Below, in pieces: positions 45,719 to 51,744 of a DNA stretch of 64,000 nt. How positions within the stretch are numbered: the first letter of the stretch is position 1; each line of letters begins with the position of its first letter. Where the stretch lies: assembly GCA_945861405.1 (NCBI GenBank), contig CAMAUL010000006.1, positions 1-64,000 of the forward strand, in the 5' to 3' direction. The DNA comes from Candidatus Methylobacter oryzae (lineage in GTDB: Bacteria; Pseudomonadota; Gammaproteobacteria; Methylococcales; Methylomonadaceae). The notes under the pieces were generated by a model. That model was not told the DNA's origin. It did no database searches and saw only the letters and a program-made list of their open reading frames with translations. The position numbers and the translations under genes were made by a program.

Positions 45719-46147
45719 TCAATCTGCAACAGCCAGAATCACCGCACCGGCTTTAAATACCGCCGTGGCCGGTTTGCCTTTGCTCAAGCCCAAGGCTTCG
45801 ACGCTGTCGTTGGTGACGGTGGCGGCAACCTGCTCGCCGCCTTTTAGCTCGATATCGACTTCGGCGTTGACAGCGCCGGGTTTAACCTGGGTTATCGTGC
45901 CTTGCAGCTGGTTGCGCGCCGAAAGCCGGTAGCCGCCGAAATCGGTGACAATGATGATTTGCGGAGCCTTGACCAGCGCGACCACTTCCAGGCCGATCTT
46001 GATCCCCAGCGTTTCGACGGACTCTTTGGTAATCGAGGCGACGATGGCTTCCCCGCCCTTCAAGCCGACATGAACTTCGGCATTAACCGCGCCGATAATT
46101 ACTTGGCTAACGGTACCGGTAAACTGATTTCGAGCACTTACTTTCAT
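45719..46147 (-). CDS. Molybdopterin-binding (Mop) protein with two TOBE domains
   Basis: A 142-residue protein made of two Mop/TOBE repeats: SARNQFTGTVSQVIIGAVNA at residue 4 and SARNQLQGTITQVKPGAVNA at about 76. Each contains the SARNQ..G.V and NAEV..L.GGE signature that binds molybdate or tungstate. Such proteins store or buffer the oxyanion. It is last in the molybdate operon, 21 bases after modC. Confidence 0.93.
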   Translation of the reverse strand: MKVSARNQFTGTVSQVIIGAVNAEVHVGLKGGEAIVASITKESVETLGIKIGLEVVALVKAPQIIIVTDFGGYRLSARNQLQGTITQVKPGAVNAEVDIELKGGEQVAATVTNDSVEALGLSKGKPATAVFKAGAVILAVAD

Positions 46148-46168
46148 GATAAATCTCCTCAGTATTGA

Positions 46169-47245
46169 TTAATTTAATATCGATGTACCCTTGATCTGCA
46201 CATAAACCGCCATGCCGATCTGCAAATCCAGCAATAGCGCCGATTTGCGGGTTATGTGCGCCAGCAACGCTTGATCGCCGACCTGAAACCTAATCACACT
46301 CTGACTGTCGCGACCGTCGGCGATGCCGGTGATAGTCGCGGGCAGCACATTGAGAATGCTGGTGGCGGTCGGCGCTTCAAGCGCGATGCTGACGTCACGG
46401 GCGTAAATCTGTACCCGCAATGGTGTACCGACCGGGGCATCGACTGCCGGTAGGCTGAGAGAGCCTCCGGCAAAAGCGACGCGGGTCAGATGGTAGTCGG
46501 CTTCATGTTCGGCCACTGTCGCCTGCCAAACCGTGGCGGCCTCCCGGTCTTGCGCCAGCGGCACGTCGAGACGGCTTTGCGTTTCCGACAGCGGCCCCGA
46601 AGCCAATGCCTGACCGTCTTCCAGAATCACCAGCGTGTCGGCCAATTGCGCGACCTCCTGCTGAGAGTGGGTGACGTACAGCACCGGAATGTCCAGTTGC
46701 TGATGCAGGCGACTTAAAAACGGCAGGATTTCCTGTTTGCGCTTGAAATCCAATGACGCCAGCGGCTCATCCATCAGCAGGATTTCCGGGTTCAGCGCCA
46801 GCGCACGGGCGATGGCGACCCGCTGCCGTTCGCCGCCGGACAAGTGTTCCGGCATGCGCTCCATTAAGTGGCCGATGCCCAGTAACTCAAGGGTTTGCTC
46901 CAGCTTGACCGTGCCAGGATTTTGTTTAGCTCGCTTCAAACCGTAGTGCAGATTACCCCGCACCGTTAAATGTGGAAACAGGTTGGCTTCCTGAAATACA
47001 TAACCCAATGGGCGTTTATGCGTGGGTAGAAACAGGTCGCACTCGCTGTCTTGCCAAACATGGCCGTTGATTGCCAGAAACCCTTGCGGTGCACGTTGCA
47101 GTCCGGCGATGCAGCGCAGCAAAGTGGTTTTGCCGGAGCCGGAATGGCCGAACAAAACCGTAATGCCGGAGCCGGGCAACTTTAAATCGACGTCTAATTT
47201 AAAGTCGCCGTAATCGAGCTGGAAGCGGGCTAGTATTGTTGTCAT
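46169..47245 (-). CDS. modC: Molybdate ABC transporter ATPase ModC
   Basis: A 358-residue ATPase. Walker A is VLFGHSGSGKTTLLRCIAGL, signature LSGGERQRVAIARAL, Walker B EILLMDEPLASLD and H-loop VTHSQQEV; a C-terminal TOBE/Mop domain (residues about 290-355) senses molybdate, as in ModC proteins. It is downstream of modB but separated by a 207-base repeat-filled gap. Confidence 0.96.
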   Translation of the reverse strand: MTTILARFQLDYGDFKLDVDLKLPGSGITVLFGHSGSGKTTLLRCIAGLQRAPQGFLAINGHVWQDSECDLFLPTHKRPLGYVFQEANLFPHLTVRGNLHYGLKRAKQNPGTVKLEQTLELLGIGHLMERMPEHLSGGERQRVAIARALALNPEILLMDEPLASLDFKRKQEILPFLSRLHQQLDIPVLYVTHSQQEVAQLADTLVILEDGQALASGPLSETQSRLDVPLAQDREAATVWQATVAEHEADYHLTRVAFAGGSLSLPAVDAPVGTPLRVQIYARDVSIALEAPTATSILNVLPATITGIADGRDSQSVIRFQVGDQALLAHITRKSALLLDLQIGMAVYVQIKGTSILN

Positions 47246-47452
47246 AATATTTTTTTAAATATATGGAACACGGATTTTACTGATTTTCACTGATAGAAAT
47301 GCCTATGAAATGGCCAAAGCAAGCTTTGGACTCCAAAAAAGCCAGTCGCCGGAGTTCAAAGCTTGCTTTGAAGGGCGGGCAAAGACGATAAATGACAATC
47401 CGTCTAATCCGTGCGATCCGTGTTCCATTTCTATCACTTAATAAATTGCCGA
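47246..47452. repeat. Nested repeats between modB and modC
   Basis: An AACACGGAT-type element (47263-47429, ends ATGGAACACGGAT and ATCCGTGTTCCAT) contains another palindrome at 47315-47372 (AAAGCAAGCTTTGGACTCC and GGAGTTCAAAGCTTGCTTT) of the GGAGTGCA-like class. No gene is seen. Confidence 0.8.
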
Positions 47453-48139
47453 TTATTTAAGCGGGTGGGCGACGGGATGCGTTTTCAGCACGGTATACAA
47501 CACCAGCAATACGCTAAATGAGAATAACAGCAAGCAGCCTGCCAGCCAGTGGGCTTCTGTGTATTCCAGGGCTTCGACATGGTTGTAGATTTGCACCGAC
47601 ACCACGCGGGTCTTGTCGGGAATATTACCGCCGACCATCAGCACTACGCCGAATTCGCCGACGGTATGCGCAAAGCCTAAAATAGCGGCAGTTAGGAAGC
47701 CGGGTTTCGCGAGCGGCACGACAACGCTGAAAAAACTATCCAAAGGGCTGGCGCGCAAGGTTGCCGCCGCTTCCAGAGGATGTTCGCCGATCGTAGCGAA
47801 CGCGGTTTGTAAAGGTTGCACGACAAACGGCAACGAATACAGCACCGATGCCACCACCAGACCGGGGAAGGTGAACGGCAATGTGCCCAAACCCAGCCAA
47901 ATCGTGAGTTTTCCGATTGCCCCGGCCGGCCCCATCAGCACCAGCAAATAAAAGCCCAATACCGTCGGCGGCAGCACCAGCGGCAGCGCTACGACGGCAT
48001 TGATGACGCCTTTCCATGCGGATCGCGTCCGGGCAAGCCACCAAGCCAACGGAGTGCCGAACAGCAACATCAATAAGGTGGCGATGCTGGCGACCTTGAA
48101 TGTTAAGAATAATGCGCCGAGATCGGCAGGGGTTAGCAT
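47453..48139 (-). CDS. modB: Molybdate ABC transporter permease ModB
   Basis: A 228-residue permease with five to six helices. The ATG at 48139 follows GAGG and gives MLTPADLGALFLTFKVASIA. The EAA loop HPLEAAATLRASPLDSFFSVVVPLAK and the C-terminal AHTVGEFGVVLMVGGNIPDK are typical of ModB. A longer frame to 48250 is made of repeat DNA. A diverged copy of its first 14 codons lies upstream at 48364-48405. Confidence 0.95.
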   Translation of the reverse strand: MLTPADLGALFLTFKVASIATLLMLLFGTPLAWWLARTRSAWKGVINAVVALPLVLPPTVLGFYLLVLMGPAGAIGKLTIWLGLGTLPFTFPGLVVASVLYSLPFVVQPLQTAFATIGEHPLEAAATLRASPLDSFFSVVVPLAKPGFLTAAILGFAHTVGEFGVVLMVGGNIPDKTRVVSVQIYNHVEALEYTEAHWLAGCLLLFSFSVLLVLYTVLKTHPVAHPLK

Positions 48140-48418
48140 AAAAATGCCTCGTTTGCTGGTTCCCAAGCTCCAGCTTGGGAATTCGGTACTGGAAGCTCCA
48201 GCTTCCCGTCTCGCGAAGCTACGACTTGCATGGATGCAGGACGACTGCATGGATGCAGGAGGTAGAGTAACGCAGGGAGCAGTTGCCGCGGTAGAGCAAC
48301 GCAGGAGCGGTTGCCGAGAGCTTCGCCATCTGGGTTCCCAAGCTGGAGCTTGGGAACCAGCAATAATGTTAAAAGCAGTGTGTCGAGATCAGCTGGGGTT
48401 AGCATGTGCACCTCGTTT
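48102..48418. repeat. Repeat block flanked by a duplicated modB start region
   Basis: An element at 48155-48361 has perfect 27-base inverted ends starting GCTGGTTCCCAAGCTCC and contains GTAGAGCAACGCAGGAGC-type repeat pieces. It is flanked by two imperfect copies of about 51 bases (48102-48153 and 48368-48418) that both read MLTPADL on the minus strand. So the modB start region exists twice, with the repeat between modA and the intact modB. The upstream copy runs into repeat DNA after LLLTLL. Confidence 0.8.
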
Positions 48419-49183
48419 ATGCGTGGGTAAACCATACCCGTATTTTTCGATAATCGTCAACGCCGGGGCGGATTTTAAATAGTCCAACAACGCCGGTGCA
48501 GCCGGATTTTCGGCTCCCTTAGTCAATAGCACTGCATCTTGCCGGATCGGCGCATGAAGGTCGTCTGGAATAATCCAGCCTGAACCGGCAGCGATTTTAC
48601 CGTTTTCTATGACTTGCGATAAGGCCACAAAACCCAGTTCGGCGTTGCCGGTGCTGATGAATTGGTGAGTTTGCGCGATGTTTTCGCCCAATACAAATAA
48701 CGGGCTTAGCTTGTCTTGTAGATTCAGGCCTTTTAATACGTCCACTGCCGCCGCTCCGTAAGGGGCAAGCTTAGGATCGGCCAGAGCCAGATGCTTAAAG
48801 CCGCCGGTTGTCAGAATTTTCCCCTGATCGTCGACATAGCCGGGTGTAGCCGACCACAGCACCAGTTTGCCCAGCGCGTAGGTAAAATGACTGTTCGGTA
48901 CGGCCAGACCGGCTTGCTCTAATTTCTGTGGACTTTTTTCGTCCGCCGATAGCAAGACTTCAAAAGGTGCGCCGTTTTCCAGTTGCGAGACGAATTTGCC
49001 GGATGAGCCAAACGATAATTTGGCGCTATGGCCGGTCGCTTTTTCAAATTCGGCGGCGATTTCGGTCATCGGCTTGCTGAAATTGGCTGCGACAGCGACC
49101 AGGACTGTTGCGGCTATGCTGGTTTGGCTTAATAGCAGCAACGTTAAGGCTATGGCAGGGCGGAAAAAAGTGGTTGGTAGCAT
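48389..49183 (-). CDS. modA: Molybdate-binding periplasmic protein ModA
   Basis: A 264-residue substrate-binding protein. The signal peptide (ALTLLLLSQTSIAA) is followed by LVAVAANFSKPMTEIAAEFE, LSFGSSGKFVSQLENGAPFE (oxyanion-binding Ser), LALADPKLAPYGAAAVDVL and a C-terminal YLKSAPALTIIEKYGYGLP. All are typical of ModA. Its stop overlaps the duplicated modB start region by 17 bases. Confidence 0.95.
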   Translation of the reverse strand: MLPTTFFRPAIALTLLLLSQTSIAATVLVAVAANFSKPMTEIAAEFEKATGHSAKLSFGSSGKFVSQLENGAPFEVLLSADEKSPQKLEQAGLAVPNSHFTYALGKLVLWSATPGYVDDQGKILTTGGFKHLALADPKLAPYGAAAVDVLKGLNLQDKLSPLFVLGENIAQTHQFISTGNAELGFVALSQVIENGKIAAGSGWIIPDDLHAPIRQDAVLLTKGAENPAAPALLDYLKSAPALTIIEKYGYGLPTHKRGAHANPS

Positions 49184-49226
49184 GAGCTATCTCCAAAGGT
49201 GAGGGAAAGAAGGCCTGGCAAGCGCC

Positions 49227-50732
49227 TTAAAATCTAAGCATGCTTTGCACATAGAAATAATCGATGTCTTGGGCATTGGGGGCCGACGGCGCTTTTCTGG
49301 CAAACTCGCCCTTAAACAAATGCGCCCAACCTGTTTCAAGGCTTAGGCTGCTGTTGACATCCCAGCGAGCCGACAAGTCCAGCTGATGGCCGACAAAATC
49401 GCCGCTGCGGCCGGTTGTGTCTTGTAGTCCGGCGGTGATCCAGCTGTCTTTGGCCGATGCCAGCCAGAATACGCGATGGCTAAGCGTGGCTTGCACATCG
49501 GAACGCGGTGAAACGTTGATGCGGTAGCCAGGGCTGTTGATGTTGCTGCGGGCAAAAGCGCCGTAAATGCCGGTGGGGCCGTATTCGAAACGGCGGGCGC
49601 CGTACAGGGTGTCGAAGCGCTGATCTTTGCCGTCATTGGGGTTGTCATCGCCGCCGGCGTAGTCGTATTCCAGTCCCAGGCGCGGCGACCACGGTATATC
49701 GAAGGTATAGCCGACATCGGCATGCTGATACCAGGCCTGATGCTGTAAATCTTTACCGTCGTTGGCGGCGGTGGTGGCCCGTACCGTGCCGAACTGGCCG
49801 ATGGTTTCCAGTTGAAAGTCGAATTCAGATTTGGCGGGTTTGATGTAAAAACGCATGCCGGGCGTAAAATAGCGGCGATTGCGGGTCGGATTGCGGACGC
49901 TGTCGCTCTCGTCAAGATGATACAGATAAACCTCGCTGTTGATGCCCCAGCCCAGGTTGTACAGCTCCAAAAAACCGCCGGAAAACAAGGTGTGGGTGTC
50001 CTTTTCGTCCCATTCATGTTTTTCGTTGAGTATGTCGGCGGCGGCAGTCGGGTAGCGGATGACCGGCATGGTGACAAAGCCGTTGAATTGCCAGTTACCG
50101 TAATCCAGCAGGCGCAGGTTTACCCCGGTAAAGCTGTTGATGGTGTTGCGCATTGCGTTCCTGGCAATCAATCGGCGGCTGCCTAAATTCAGGGTTTGCC
50201 GACCGGCAGTCACCTCGGCGCCGATGCCGCTGTATAAAACATTTTGGTCTGCCCAGGCGGCATAACCTTGGATAAAATCGGCTTGGTCGGCATGGGTGTT
50301 ATTCACCCCGGAACCGCTATCCGCACCCAATGCTCTTGCATCCAGAAATTCCGCGCCGAGCCGGAACGAGCCCAGAGTGGCTTGCAGCCAAAGGTCGGTT
50401 TGCAGCGGAATTTGCTGGTCGCCGCCTTTGCCGTTGGCATTGAATCTGCCGTCCATTGTTTCGTAGCGGGTGCGTTGCTCTAAAGACATTGATAGCCATT
50501 TCGGCAACTTCAGTGTGTCGTGCAGGTTCCAGACCGGTTTTTCGTATTTATCGGATCCCAGCAACGCATCGGGCATCTGGCTGGCAAAGGGCGCGACAGG
50601 CGGTTTGCTGTATTTTTTCTTTTCAGCTGCCTGAATAGTATCGCTGCCGCCCATGCAAAAGCCGCCGGCGACAATTAAGCTGAGTGTATGGCTGACAGCA
50701 GCACCGGCAAGAGGTATTCTTCGCATCATCAA
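49227..50732 (-). CDS. Alginate-export-like outer-membrane porin in the molybdate operon
   Basis: A 501-residue outer-membrane beta-barrel protein of the alginate_exp/AlgE-like family. It starts with a long signal-like region, then KLPKWLSMSLEQRTRYETMD, LGAEFLDARALGAD, VTAGRQTLNLGSRRLIARN and a C-terminal YFYVQSMLRF ending in Phe, the outer-membrane insertion signal. It lies 43 bases upstream of modA on the same strand and behind a ModE-type operator. No alginate genes are nearby, so an oxyanion or molybdate porin is likely; this is inference. Confidence 0.85.
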   Translation of the reverse strand: MMMRRIPLAGAAVSHTLSLIVAGGFCMGGSDTIQAAEKKKYSKPPVAPFASQMPDALLGSDKYEKPVWNLHDTLKLPKWLSMSLEQRTRYETMDGRFNANGKGGDQQIPLQTDLWLQATLGSFRLGAEFLDARALGADSGSGVNNTHADQADFIQGYAAWADQNVLYSGIGAEVTAGRQTLNLGSRRLIARNAMRNTINSFTGVNLRLLDYGNWQFNGFVTMPVIRYPTAAADILNEKHEWDEKDTHTLFSGGFLELYNLGWGINSEVYLYHLDESDSVRNPTRNRRYFTPGMRFYIKPAKSEFDFQLETIGQFGTVRATTAANDGKDLQHQAWYQHADVGYTFDIPWSPRLGLEYDYAGGDDNPNDGKDQRFDTLYGARRFEYGPTGIYGAFARSNINSPGYRINVSPRSDVQATLSHRVFWLASAKDSWITAGLQDTTGRSGDFVGHQLDLSARWDVNSSLSLETGWAHLFKGEFARKAPSAPNAQDIDYFYVQSMLRF

Positions 50733-50760
50733 TGGCCTATAATCGCAAATATCGAATTCA

Positions 50761-50782
50761 CATCGACATTGGTTTGTCGATG
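50761..50782. repeat. Short inverted repeat in the mod intergenic region
   Basis: CATCGACA-TTGGTT-TGTCGATG, an 8-base perfect stem, lies between the porin start and the ModE-type site. It could be a leader hairpin or a second regulator site. Confidence 0.55.
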
Positions 50783-50802
50783 CACACGGCCTTAGTTTAA
50801 TA

Positions 50803-50826
50803 CGTTATGTACAAAAGTAAATAACG
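50803..50826. promoter_or_regulatory. Candidate ModE operator
   Basis: CGTTAT-N12-ATAACG, an inverted repeat with the same half-sites and 12-base spacing as the ModE operator of E. coli modA. It lies between the divergent porin-mod operon (start 50732) and modE (start 50923), where ModE-Mo would repress. Known architecture; binding itself is inference. Confidence 0.7.
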
Positions 50827-50922: not shown

Positions 50923-51744
50923 ATGTCCGAAACCATCAATAGTAACAACACTGGGCCAACCTGGATCAAGGGCGAATTGCGGCTGGCCGACATGCTGGAT
51001 AGCCGCATGATCGGTTTGCTAAGGGCGATAGATCAAAGCGGCTCCATCAATCAGGCCGCCAAGCAGGTGGGCTTGAGTTACAAAGGCGCCTGGCAGATCA
51101 TCGAAAGAGCCAACAACGGCGCGCCGAAAACATTAGTTTCCACCGCCACCGGCGGCAGCAAGGGCGGCGGGACTTGTTTAACCGAGGCGGGACGTTCTTT
51201 GTTGGCGCTGTTTACCGACCTGGAACAACAACATCGGCAGTTTCTTGAGCAGCTCAATCGTAGTCTCGCCGACGATCCCGAAACGGTTTTGCTGTTGCAG
51301 CGCCTGGTGGTTAAAACCAGCGCCCGCAACCAGATTTTCGGCAGCATTGTCGCGATTCAAGCCGATGCGGTCAATGCAGAGGTTATCGTGAAATTGAAAG
51401 GGGGCGAACAGATTATTGCCACCATCACCCAGACATCGCTCAGCGATCTTGGGTTACAGGTCGGCGCCGATGCGGTATTGTTGATCAATAGCACCGATAT
51501 AATGCTGACAACCGATCCCGGCACCAATCGCTTTTCAGCACGCAACCGTTTGTCCGGCAACGTGATTCGCGTCCAGCAGGACGAGGTGAATGCAGAGGTG
51601 ATTATTTTGTTACCCTGCGGTGAAACACTGGTCGCCATGATTACGCAGCAAAGCGCAAAGAGTCTGGCGCTTATGCCCGGCATATCGGTATGGGTGATGT
51701 TTAAAACCAACGTACCGGTTCTGGGAGTCATGCAGCCACTTTGA
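50923..51744 (+). CDS. modE: Molybdate-responsive regulator ModE
   Basis: A 273-residue regulator. The N-terminal winged HTH reads DMLDSRMIGLLRAIDQSGSI then NQAAKQVGLSYKGAWQIIE, with GGSKGGGTCLTEAGRSLL in the wing, as in ModE. Two C-terminal TOBE/Mop domains follow (SARNQIFGSIVAIQADAVNA and SARNRLSGNVIRVQQDEVNA), which bind molybdate. It is divergent from the porin-modABC-mop operon. Confidence 0.96.
   Translation: MSETINSNNTGPTWIKGELRLADMLDSRMIGLLRAIDQSGSINQAAKQVGLSYKGAWQIIERANNGAPKTLVSTATGGSKGGGTCLTEAGRSLLALFTDLEQQHRQFLEQLNRSLADDPETVLLLQRLVVKTSARNQIFGSIVAIQADAVNAEVIVKLKGGEQIIATITQTSLSDLGLQVGADAVLLINSTDIMLTTDPGTNRFSARNRLSGNVIRVQQDEVNAEVIILLPCGETLVAMITQQSAKSLALMPGISVWVMFKTNVPVLGVMQPL

Follow-up and report, generated by a model that had tools for sequence, protein, structure and literature searches.

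In the 64,000-nucleotide stretch of Candidatus Methylobacter oryzae DNA analysed here (contig CAMAUL010000006.1, positions 1 to 64,000; hereafter the window), a gene of the Alginate_exp family of outer-membrane barrels stands at the head of a molybdate-uptake (mod) locus. The explanation that we consider best for the whole, and likely to be correct, is an operon repressed by ModE in which an arginine-bearing outer-membrane channel for molybdate would serve beside the ModABC importer. Within this explanation, genome comparison gives good support for placing the porin gene in a mod operon under ModE control, and ModE control of the porin itself is strongly indicated; that the protein is a dedicated molybdate channel is what we infer from its genomic setting, molybdate being most likely its main substrate. 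The initial annotation had proposed a dedicated outer-membrane molybdate or oxyanion channel in a ModE-controlled operon: the operon part of that proposal stood, through conserved linkage and a conserved operator, and the channel part is taken over here as the inference just named.

The porin gene occupies 49227-50729 on the minus strand, if the ATG at 50729 is taken as the start (a TTG at 50732 is also possible), and its product, an AlgE-like barrel that we propose as a molybdate/oxyanion channel, clearly belongs to the Alginate_exp family (PF13372, E 3.8e-62, 210.8 bits against a cut-off of 25.2); an NCBIfam scan of the porin gave no match at E up to 0.1. Its final residue is phenylalanine, a terminal residue common among outer-membrane barrels. 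After 43 bp (49184-49226), a gap within which no terminator-like site is listed, comes modA (48389-49183, minus strand), the gene of the molybdate-binding periplasmic protein (TIGR01256, 239 bits, cut-off 62.5). Divergent from the porin is modE (50923-51744, plus strand), so that the genome holds a ModE regulator with a helix-turn-helix (HTH) and two Mop/TOBE domains (TIGR00638, 119.5 bits, cut-off 55; TOBE E 1.4e-26), the HTH model TIGR00637 scoring 90.6 bits, slightly below its cut-off of 98.5. Between porin and modE, at 50803-50826, lies the exact palindrome CGTTATGTACAAAAGTAAATAACG (CGTTAT-N12-ATAACG), a ModE-type operator. Its half-sites and spacing agree with the Escherichia coli ModE consensus, given as ATCGNTATATA-N6-TATATANCGAT, i.e. 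CGNTAT-N12-ATANCG, in PMC545781 and in nearly identical form in PMC2700814. The barrel gene 43 bases before modA, the divergent modE and the palindrome with the known operator spacing had all been claimed in the initial annotation, and all were borne out, the operator to the exact coordinates. A chance match was rejected, since the exact palindrome occurs only once in the 3.58-Mb genome. Sites with at most one mismatch number 12 in the whole genome against 20 for the reversed control pattern, so that only the exact copy stands out, and weight was accordingly given to exact or conserved sites; the window alone holds 7 sites with up to two mismatches, where 2.09 are expected. A scan for sigma-70 promoters near the operator supports none, its 5 promoter-like sites being equalled by 5.1 in shuffled sequences.

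The nearest named relatives of the genome carry the names Methylobacter, Methylomonas and others of the Methylococcales, and the porin was sought in genomes of widening taxonomic rank. Counting distant paralogues, 152 of 201 genomes of the family had a match at E 1e-10 or better, and 91 of 151 genomes of the order had one at E 1e-40 or better; the class gave 12 of 369 genomes and the phylum 12 of 398. From the loci of the genome search came 199 porin rows, 181 of them distinct, of which 180 were kept (one shorter than 330 amino acids was dropped), while 33 named loci (L031-L063), many of which share contigs with other loci, were counted separately. Porins with a profile score of 590 or more were taken as close orthologues (108 distinct). 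The check proposed at the outset, whether the porin stands beside modABC in other genomes, turned out positively in several genera: modA lies within 2.5 kb in 84 of the 108; it follows the porin on the porin's own strand in 83 cases, and the gap between the two open reading frames (ORFs) is at most 150 bp in 70 of the 84. One further close orthologue is accompanied by modB and modC with no modA match; the other 23 have no mod link, and 8 of them have less than 1.5 kb of downstream sequence, 15 more than that. Among the named orthologues, modA was matched in 26 of 33, four have less than 1 kb of downstream sequence, and L042, L045 and L052 show no modA match within 9 kb. At L042 the porin follows mop, modE is divergent, and a site with one mismatch lies between modE and mop. 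A different arrangement was seen at Methylomonas-type loci (L034:10519-13001, L057:10521-13010, L279:5080-7642), where mop and an ATPase-like gene come after modA and the stretch gave no modB match. Two porin genes are broken, one by a frameshift with modA still downstream (L061:8510-10011), the other by stops (L093).

Of the 49 family genomes in which the porin search had no match, 20 were checked for modA. Ten have none at 1e-15, six have a distant one (31-42% identity), and a close modA (65-82% identity) is present in G063, G186, G050 (with one internal stop) and G041 (a fragment at a contig end). Since modA genes occur in genomes lacking the porin, the latter is probably not essential for molybdate uptake in the family, as far as the mostly draft genomes compared here can tell.

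Conservation of the operator was assessed from sites within 200 bp upstream of the porin, with dinucleotide shuffles giving the expectation, in rows sorted by neighbouring genes: 97 molybdate-linked (mod), 21 labelled sulfate-linked (cys), 14 of the 15 tungstate-linked (tup) and 47 with no recognised partner. One cys row, L234, is in fact a mod locus (modB and modC, no modA match), which leaves 20 of the 21. An operator with at most one mismatch precedes 55 of the 97 mod-linked porins, 30 times in exact form, against 0.03 expected; the figures are 1 of 21 for the sulfate label (0.03 expected), 0 of 14 for tungstate and 7 of 47 for porins without a recognised partner. Allowing two mismatches raises the counts to 68 mod, 3 cys, 0 tup and 11 without partner (expected 1.50, 0.23, 0.20 and 0.50, respectively). 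The fuller consensus of the close orthologues, read toward the porin, is CGTTATTTACTTTTATACATAACG (58 sites). Some mod-linked porins with no near site have one at a greater distance, or in the interval between modE and mop. Six named loci (L040, L047, L050, L058, L060, L063) carry a pair of sites, each with no more than one mismatch, the first in the modE-mop interval and the second ahead of the porin.

The association of operator and porin extends to porins that lie away from modA. At L045 (Methylomonas koyamae SM2, on a contig of G011) and L052 (Methylomonas sp. SURF-1, on a contig of G147) there is no mod match near the porin, and an exact palindrome, with a spacer different from the usual one, stands about 135 bp upstream of the stand-alone gene. 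In 24 genomes, hand-picked from a longer list of those with close orthologues, exact sites number 35 against 18 for a control pattern: 20 lie before a porin, 3 before modE, 2 before modA and 10 elsewhere, one of these last being 3.4 kb from a modE gene and nine having no mod match in the fetched stretch. G011 and G079 each contain exactly two exact palindromes, one of which precedes modA and the other the unlinked porin; they are separated by 380 kb of a single contig in G079 and fall on different contigs in G011. The sole exact site of G147 is the one before its porin; G003 and G023 have none. Exact half-sites at both modA and an unlinked porin are what ModE control predicts. Linkage alone cannot explain the association of operator and porin when unlinked porins keep exact operators, and the idea that the porin is a gene merely carried along with modA was therefore rejected.

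The barrel belongs to a wider set whose members stand beside other oxyanion importers. Twenty distant paralogues (about 32-36% identity; L164-L183), hand-picked from a longer list, were fetched as controls, and 18 of them adjoin sulfate-importer genes, one mod genes and one neither. At L165 (5169-11030) NCBIfam identifies the neighbours as a sulfate-binding protein, CysT and a sulfate ATPase; NCBIfam underlies the sulfate labels of L165 and of the ATPase of L154, and local hidden Markov models (HMMs) underlie the others. The sulfate-importer-linked Alginate_exp barrel of methane oxidisers may, judging from these neighbours, be a sulfate-uptake porin. A third group, from other gammaproteobacterial families as well as from the same order and family, has a TupA-like protein beside the porin in 15 cases. 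TupA-like was the only NCBIfam match of the five such proteins scanned, at 220-247 bits against a curated cut-off of 400, and the other tup labels were assigned with a local HMM built from these five; because the matches fall below the cut-off, tungstate is only the probable partner of the TupA-linked porins. Near five TupA-type porins there are regulators (L106:3027-4115, L110:8452-9525, L130:4936-6030, L136:2490-3545, L162:8006-9103) with a ModE-type HTH below cut-off and a C-terminal part that matches the last domain of PRK14498 and, in the L110 regulator, Pfam PBP_like; they are possibly an oxyanion-sensing type of regulator.

A tree of 150 of 177 rows, kept after thinning (quick search, midpoint-rooted, several long branches flagged), separates three clades. 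Support values are from the Shimodaira-Hasegawa-like approximate likelihood ratio test (SH-aLRT). The mod clade comprises 102 of the 150 rows (SH-aLRT 98), with 77 labelled mod, 10 without partner, 13 with short flanks and 2 labelled cys; the tup clade 29 rows (SH-aLRT 93), with 14 tup, 10 without partner, 3 short-flanked and 2 mod; and the cys clade 19 rows (SH-aLRT 98), with a core of 17 rows at 100. TIGR01256 confirms a molybdenum-type ModA beside the distant porins L120, L126, L137, L139, L142 and L178. With somewhat less assurance than for the window locus, we incline to the view that many so-called alginate export proteins would be dedicated outer-membrane oxyanion channels, each having evolved to partner one kind of ABC importer, one clade serving molybdate (Mod), another tungstate (Tup) and a third sulfate (Sbp-CysTWA). 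For these anions they would provide the passage across the outer membrane that is generally assigned to general porins.

These sister porins bear directly on the alternative suggested by the family name, namely that the porin exports alginate or another polysaccharide and lies by chance between the ModE site and modA. What speaks for this, besides the name, is the fold: when the AlphaFold model (from an alignment of 31 sequences, made up of the window protein plus 30 named loci, L047, L061 and L062 of the 33 being left out) was compared with solved structures, the best 17 matches were all AlgE, the alginate exporter of Pseudomonas aeruginosa (E 4.0e-11 to 2.9e-8). The immediate neighbours of the porin are modABC, mop and modE, genes of oxyanion import, and the direction that we deduce is uptake, unlike that of AlgE. 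The initial annotation had stated that no alginate genes are near, and this holds in so far as no polysaccharide gene was noticed in the window's ORF list, which was read by eye; an ALGX search of the genome itself gave no match, but neither did its controls. Linkage and operator are conserved across genera, the operator is kept at unlinked porins, and the relatives often stand beside oxyanion importers. Because the sister porins lie beside sulfate and probable tungstate importers, an oxyanion channel is favoured over an alginate role, which is disfavoured by the genomic context and to which we give hardly any credence.

In a Pfam scan at E up to 0.1, Alginate_exp was the sole match, with neither a plug nor a TonB-dependent receptor domain detected; identification of the protein as a TonB-dependent receptor, an OprP/OprO porin or an OprD porin was accordingly rejected. 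The absence of a plug domain makes energised uptake of a chelate unlikely, and with it part of another explanation, in which the cargo of the channel is a molybdenum complex (e.g. a catechol chelate), or chiefly tungstate, and not free molybdate. TupA-like genes beside part of the sister clade would fit the tungstate version, as would the binding of tungsten by ModA mentioned in a Salmonella review (PMC8264917). The partner at the window locus is nevertheless ModA by TIGR01256, and we regard the whole explanation as highly improbable. The barrel also has conserved residues. Across 22 diverse members, R86, R88, R132, R177 and R186 (numbered from the ATG) are invariant and R225, R293, R350, R403 and R455 nearly so. 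Each clade has further invariant arginines of its own, and the cys clade many additional invariant basic residues. In the AlphaFold model R86 and R88 are two residues apart in a predicted strand, as expected for one side of a barrel wall, and the conserved arginines may face the pore.

Several observations weigh against a dedicated, ModE-controlled molybdate channel and its clade-wise relatives. Within 200 bp, 29 of the 97 mod-linked porins have no site even with two mismatches, and the 3 two-mismatch sites before the 21 sulfate-labelled porins exceed expectation, one of the three being that of L234, which is really a mod locus. Nine close homologues (L124, L151, L152, L153, L160, L216, L217, L220, L224) have neither a recognised mod, tup or cys gene nor an operator, with some 3-7 kb of flank on both sides; some partnerless or oddly partnered homologues are second copies in multi-copy genomes (G118, G127, G199). 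A TupA-like gene is present at just 14 of the 29 rows of the tup clade. The porin model is weak (mean predicted local distance difference test score 59, predicted template modelling score 0.62), the matches to AlgE have TM-scores of 0.43-0.56, a root-mean-square deviation of about 11 and about 15% identity, and searches of PDB sequences did not reach AlgE, one giving a single chance-level match (E 0.33) and another none. All clades have an average net charge below zero, so that it is the arginine pattern alone that favours anions. Finally, partners have been swapped: L154, a porin of the mod clade, stands beside a sulfate importer, and L178, of the cys clade, beside modA. Selectivity may therefore be loose, and one barrel family is found with molybdate, probable tungstate and sulfate importers alike, as would be expected if the porin were ModE-controlled and in the operon, but a broad, little-selective anion pore that raises permeability under molybdate shortage. 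The clades are separate, mostly with one partner each where a partner is recognised, and the further arginines particular to each clade suggest tuning; we therefore hold a broad pore to be unlikely and prefer a channel with molybdate as its main substrate.

If so, the locus might work as follows. The order would be operator, porin, modA, modB, modC and mop, and modE is read in the opposite direction out of the shared intergenic region. Under ample molybdate, molybdenum-loaded ModE would sit on 50803-50826 and repress the operon; under shortage, derepression would lead to joint production of the inner-membrane importer ModABC and its own outer-membrane channel. Through this AlgE-like barrel, its lumen most likely lined by the conserved arginines, molybdate and probably other tetrahedral oxyanions too would pass passively into the periplasm, where ModA would capture molybdate. 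The barrel itself is one of the wider set, whose members have sorted into clades that go with molybdate, probable tungstate and sulfate importers. What was observed is the order of genes, a unique operator, the conservation of both, the presence of the operator at porins away from modA, the partners of each clade and the arginines in common; repression by molybdenum-loaded ModE, arginines facing the pore, passive uptake and preference for molybdate are our reading of these.

Most of this resembles the E. coli modABC/ModE system, which has a ModE with HTH and two Mop domains, a palindrome of equal spacing and the gene order modABC, as at the window locus. The difference is that the first gene of the window operon encodes a barrel; we know of no barrel gene in the E. 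coli mod operon. A working analogy is offered by the phosphate porins OprP and OprO of Pseudomonas, oxyanion-specific porins made under starvation for their anion, though they belong to another Pfam family and the sole Pfam match of the window porin is Alginate_exp. The substrate-specific OprD/Occ channels come next after AlgE among the structural matches (OccD2, E 2.3e-6), yet the porin has no OprD match in Pfam. The novelty would lie in the barrel, whose fold is known but whose role would be new and whose clades go with importers; among the open-licence papers listed, none was recognised as describing a porin in a mod operon or such a channel. In enteric bacteria molybdate is thought to cross the outer membrane by diffusion through porins, according to the Salmonella review (PMC8264917). 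A ModE-controlled channel, if true, would be a dedicated outer-membrane part of molybdate uptake, at a step usually credited to general porins, and would be relevant to methane oxidisers whose nitrogenase, nitrate reductase or formate dehydrogenase depends on molybdenum. The tungstate- and sulfate-linked sister clades would provide matched proteins for asking what sets oxyanion selectivity at the outer membrane, and a group of genes now labelled 'alginate export' would be corrected to anion uptake channels.

The other genes of the locus, all on the minus strand, are modB, a permease gene with the start MLTPADL (47453-48139; TIGR02141, 234 bits, cut-off 182.6), modC, encoding an ATPase with a TOBE domain (46169-47245; TIGR02142, 449 bits, cut-off 285; Pfam TOBE), and mop, encoding a double Mop, molbindin-like molybdate-binding protein (45719-46147; TIGR00638, two domains, 154.5 bits, cut-off 55). 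Elsewhere in the same genome there are two more, weak Alginate_exp matches, of 35 and 31 bits (L245, at G000:C42:626-1186, and L246, at G000:C92:787-999). The gap between modA and modB holds a repeat element at about 48148-48372 (region 48099-48405), on whose flanks the modB start is duplicated imperfectly over 41 nt (80%). Used as a query, the element had 74 matches in the genome including itself, mostly to pieces of it, and it therefore looks like an insertion of the miniature inverted-repeat transposable element (MITE) or repetitive extragenic palindromic (REP) type that left a remnant second modB start. Between modB and modC, at 47248-47443, nested inverted repeats with arms of 38 nt and 20 nt likewise look like a mobile or REP-type element.

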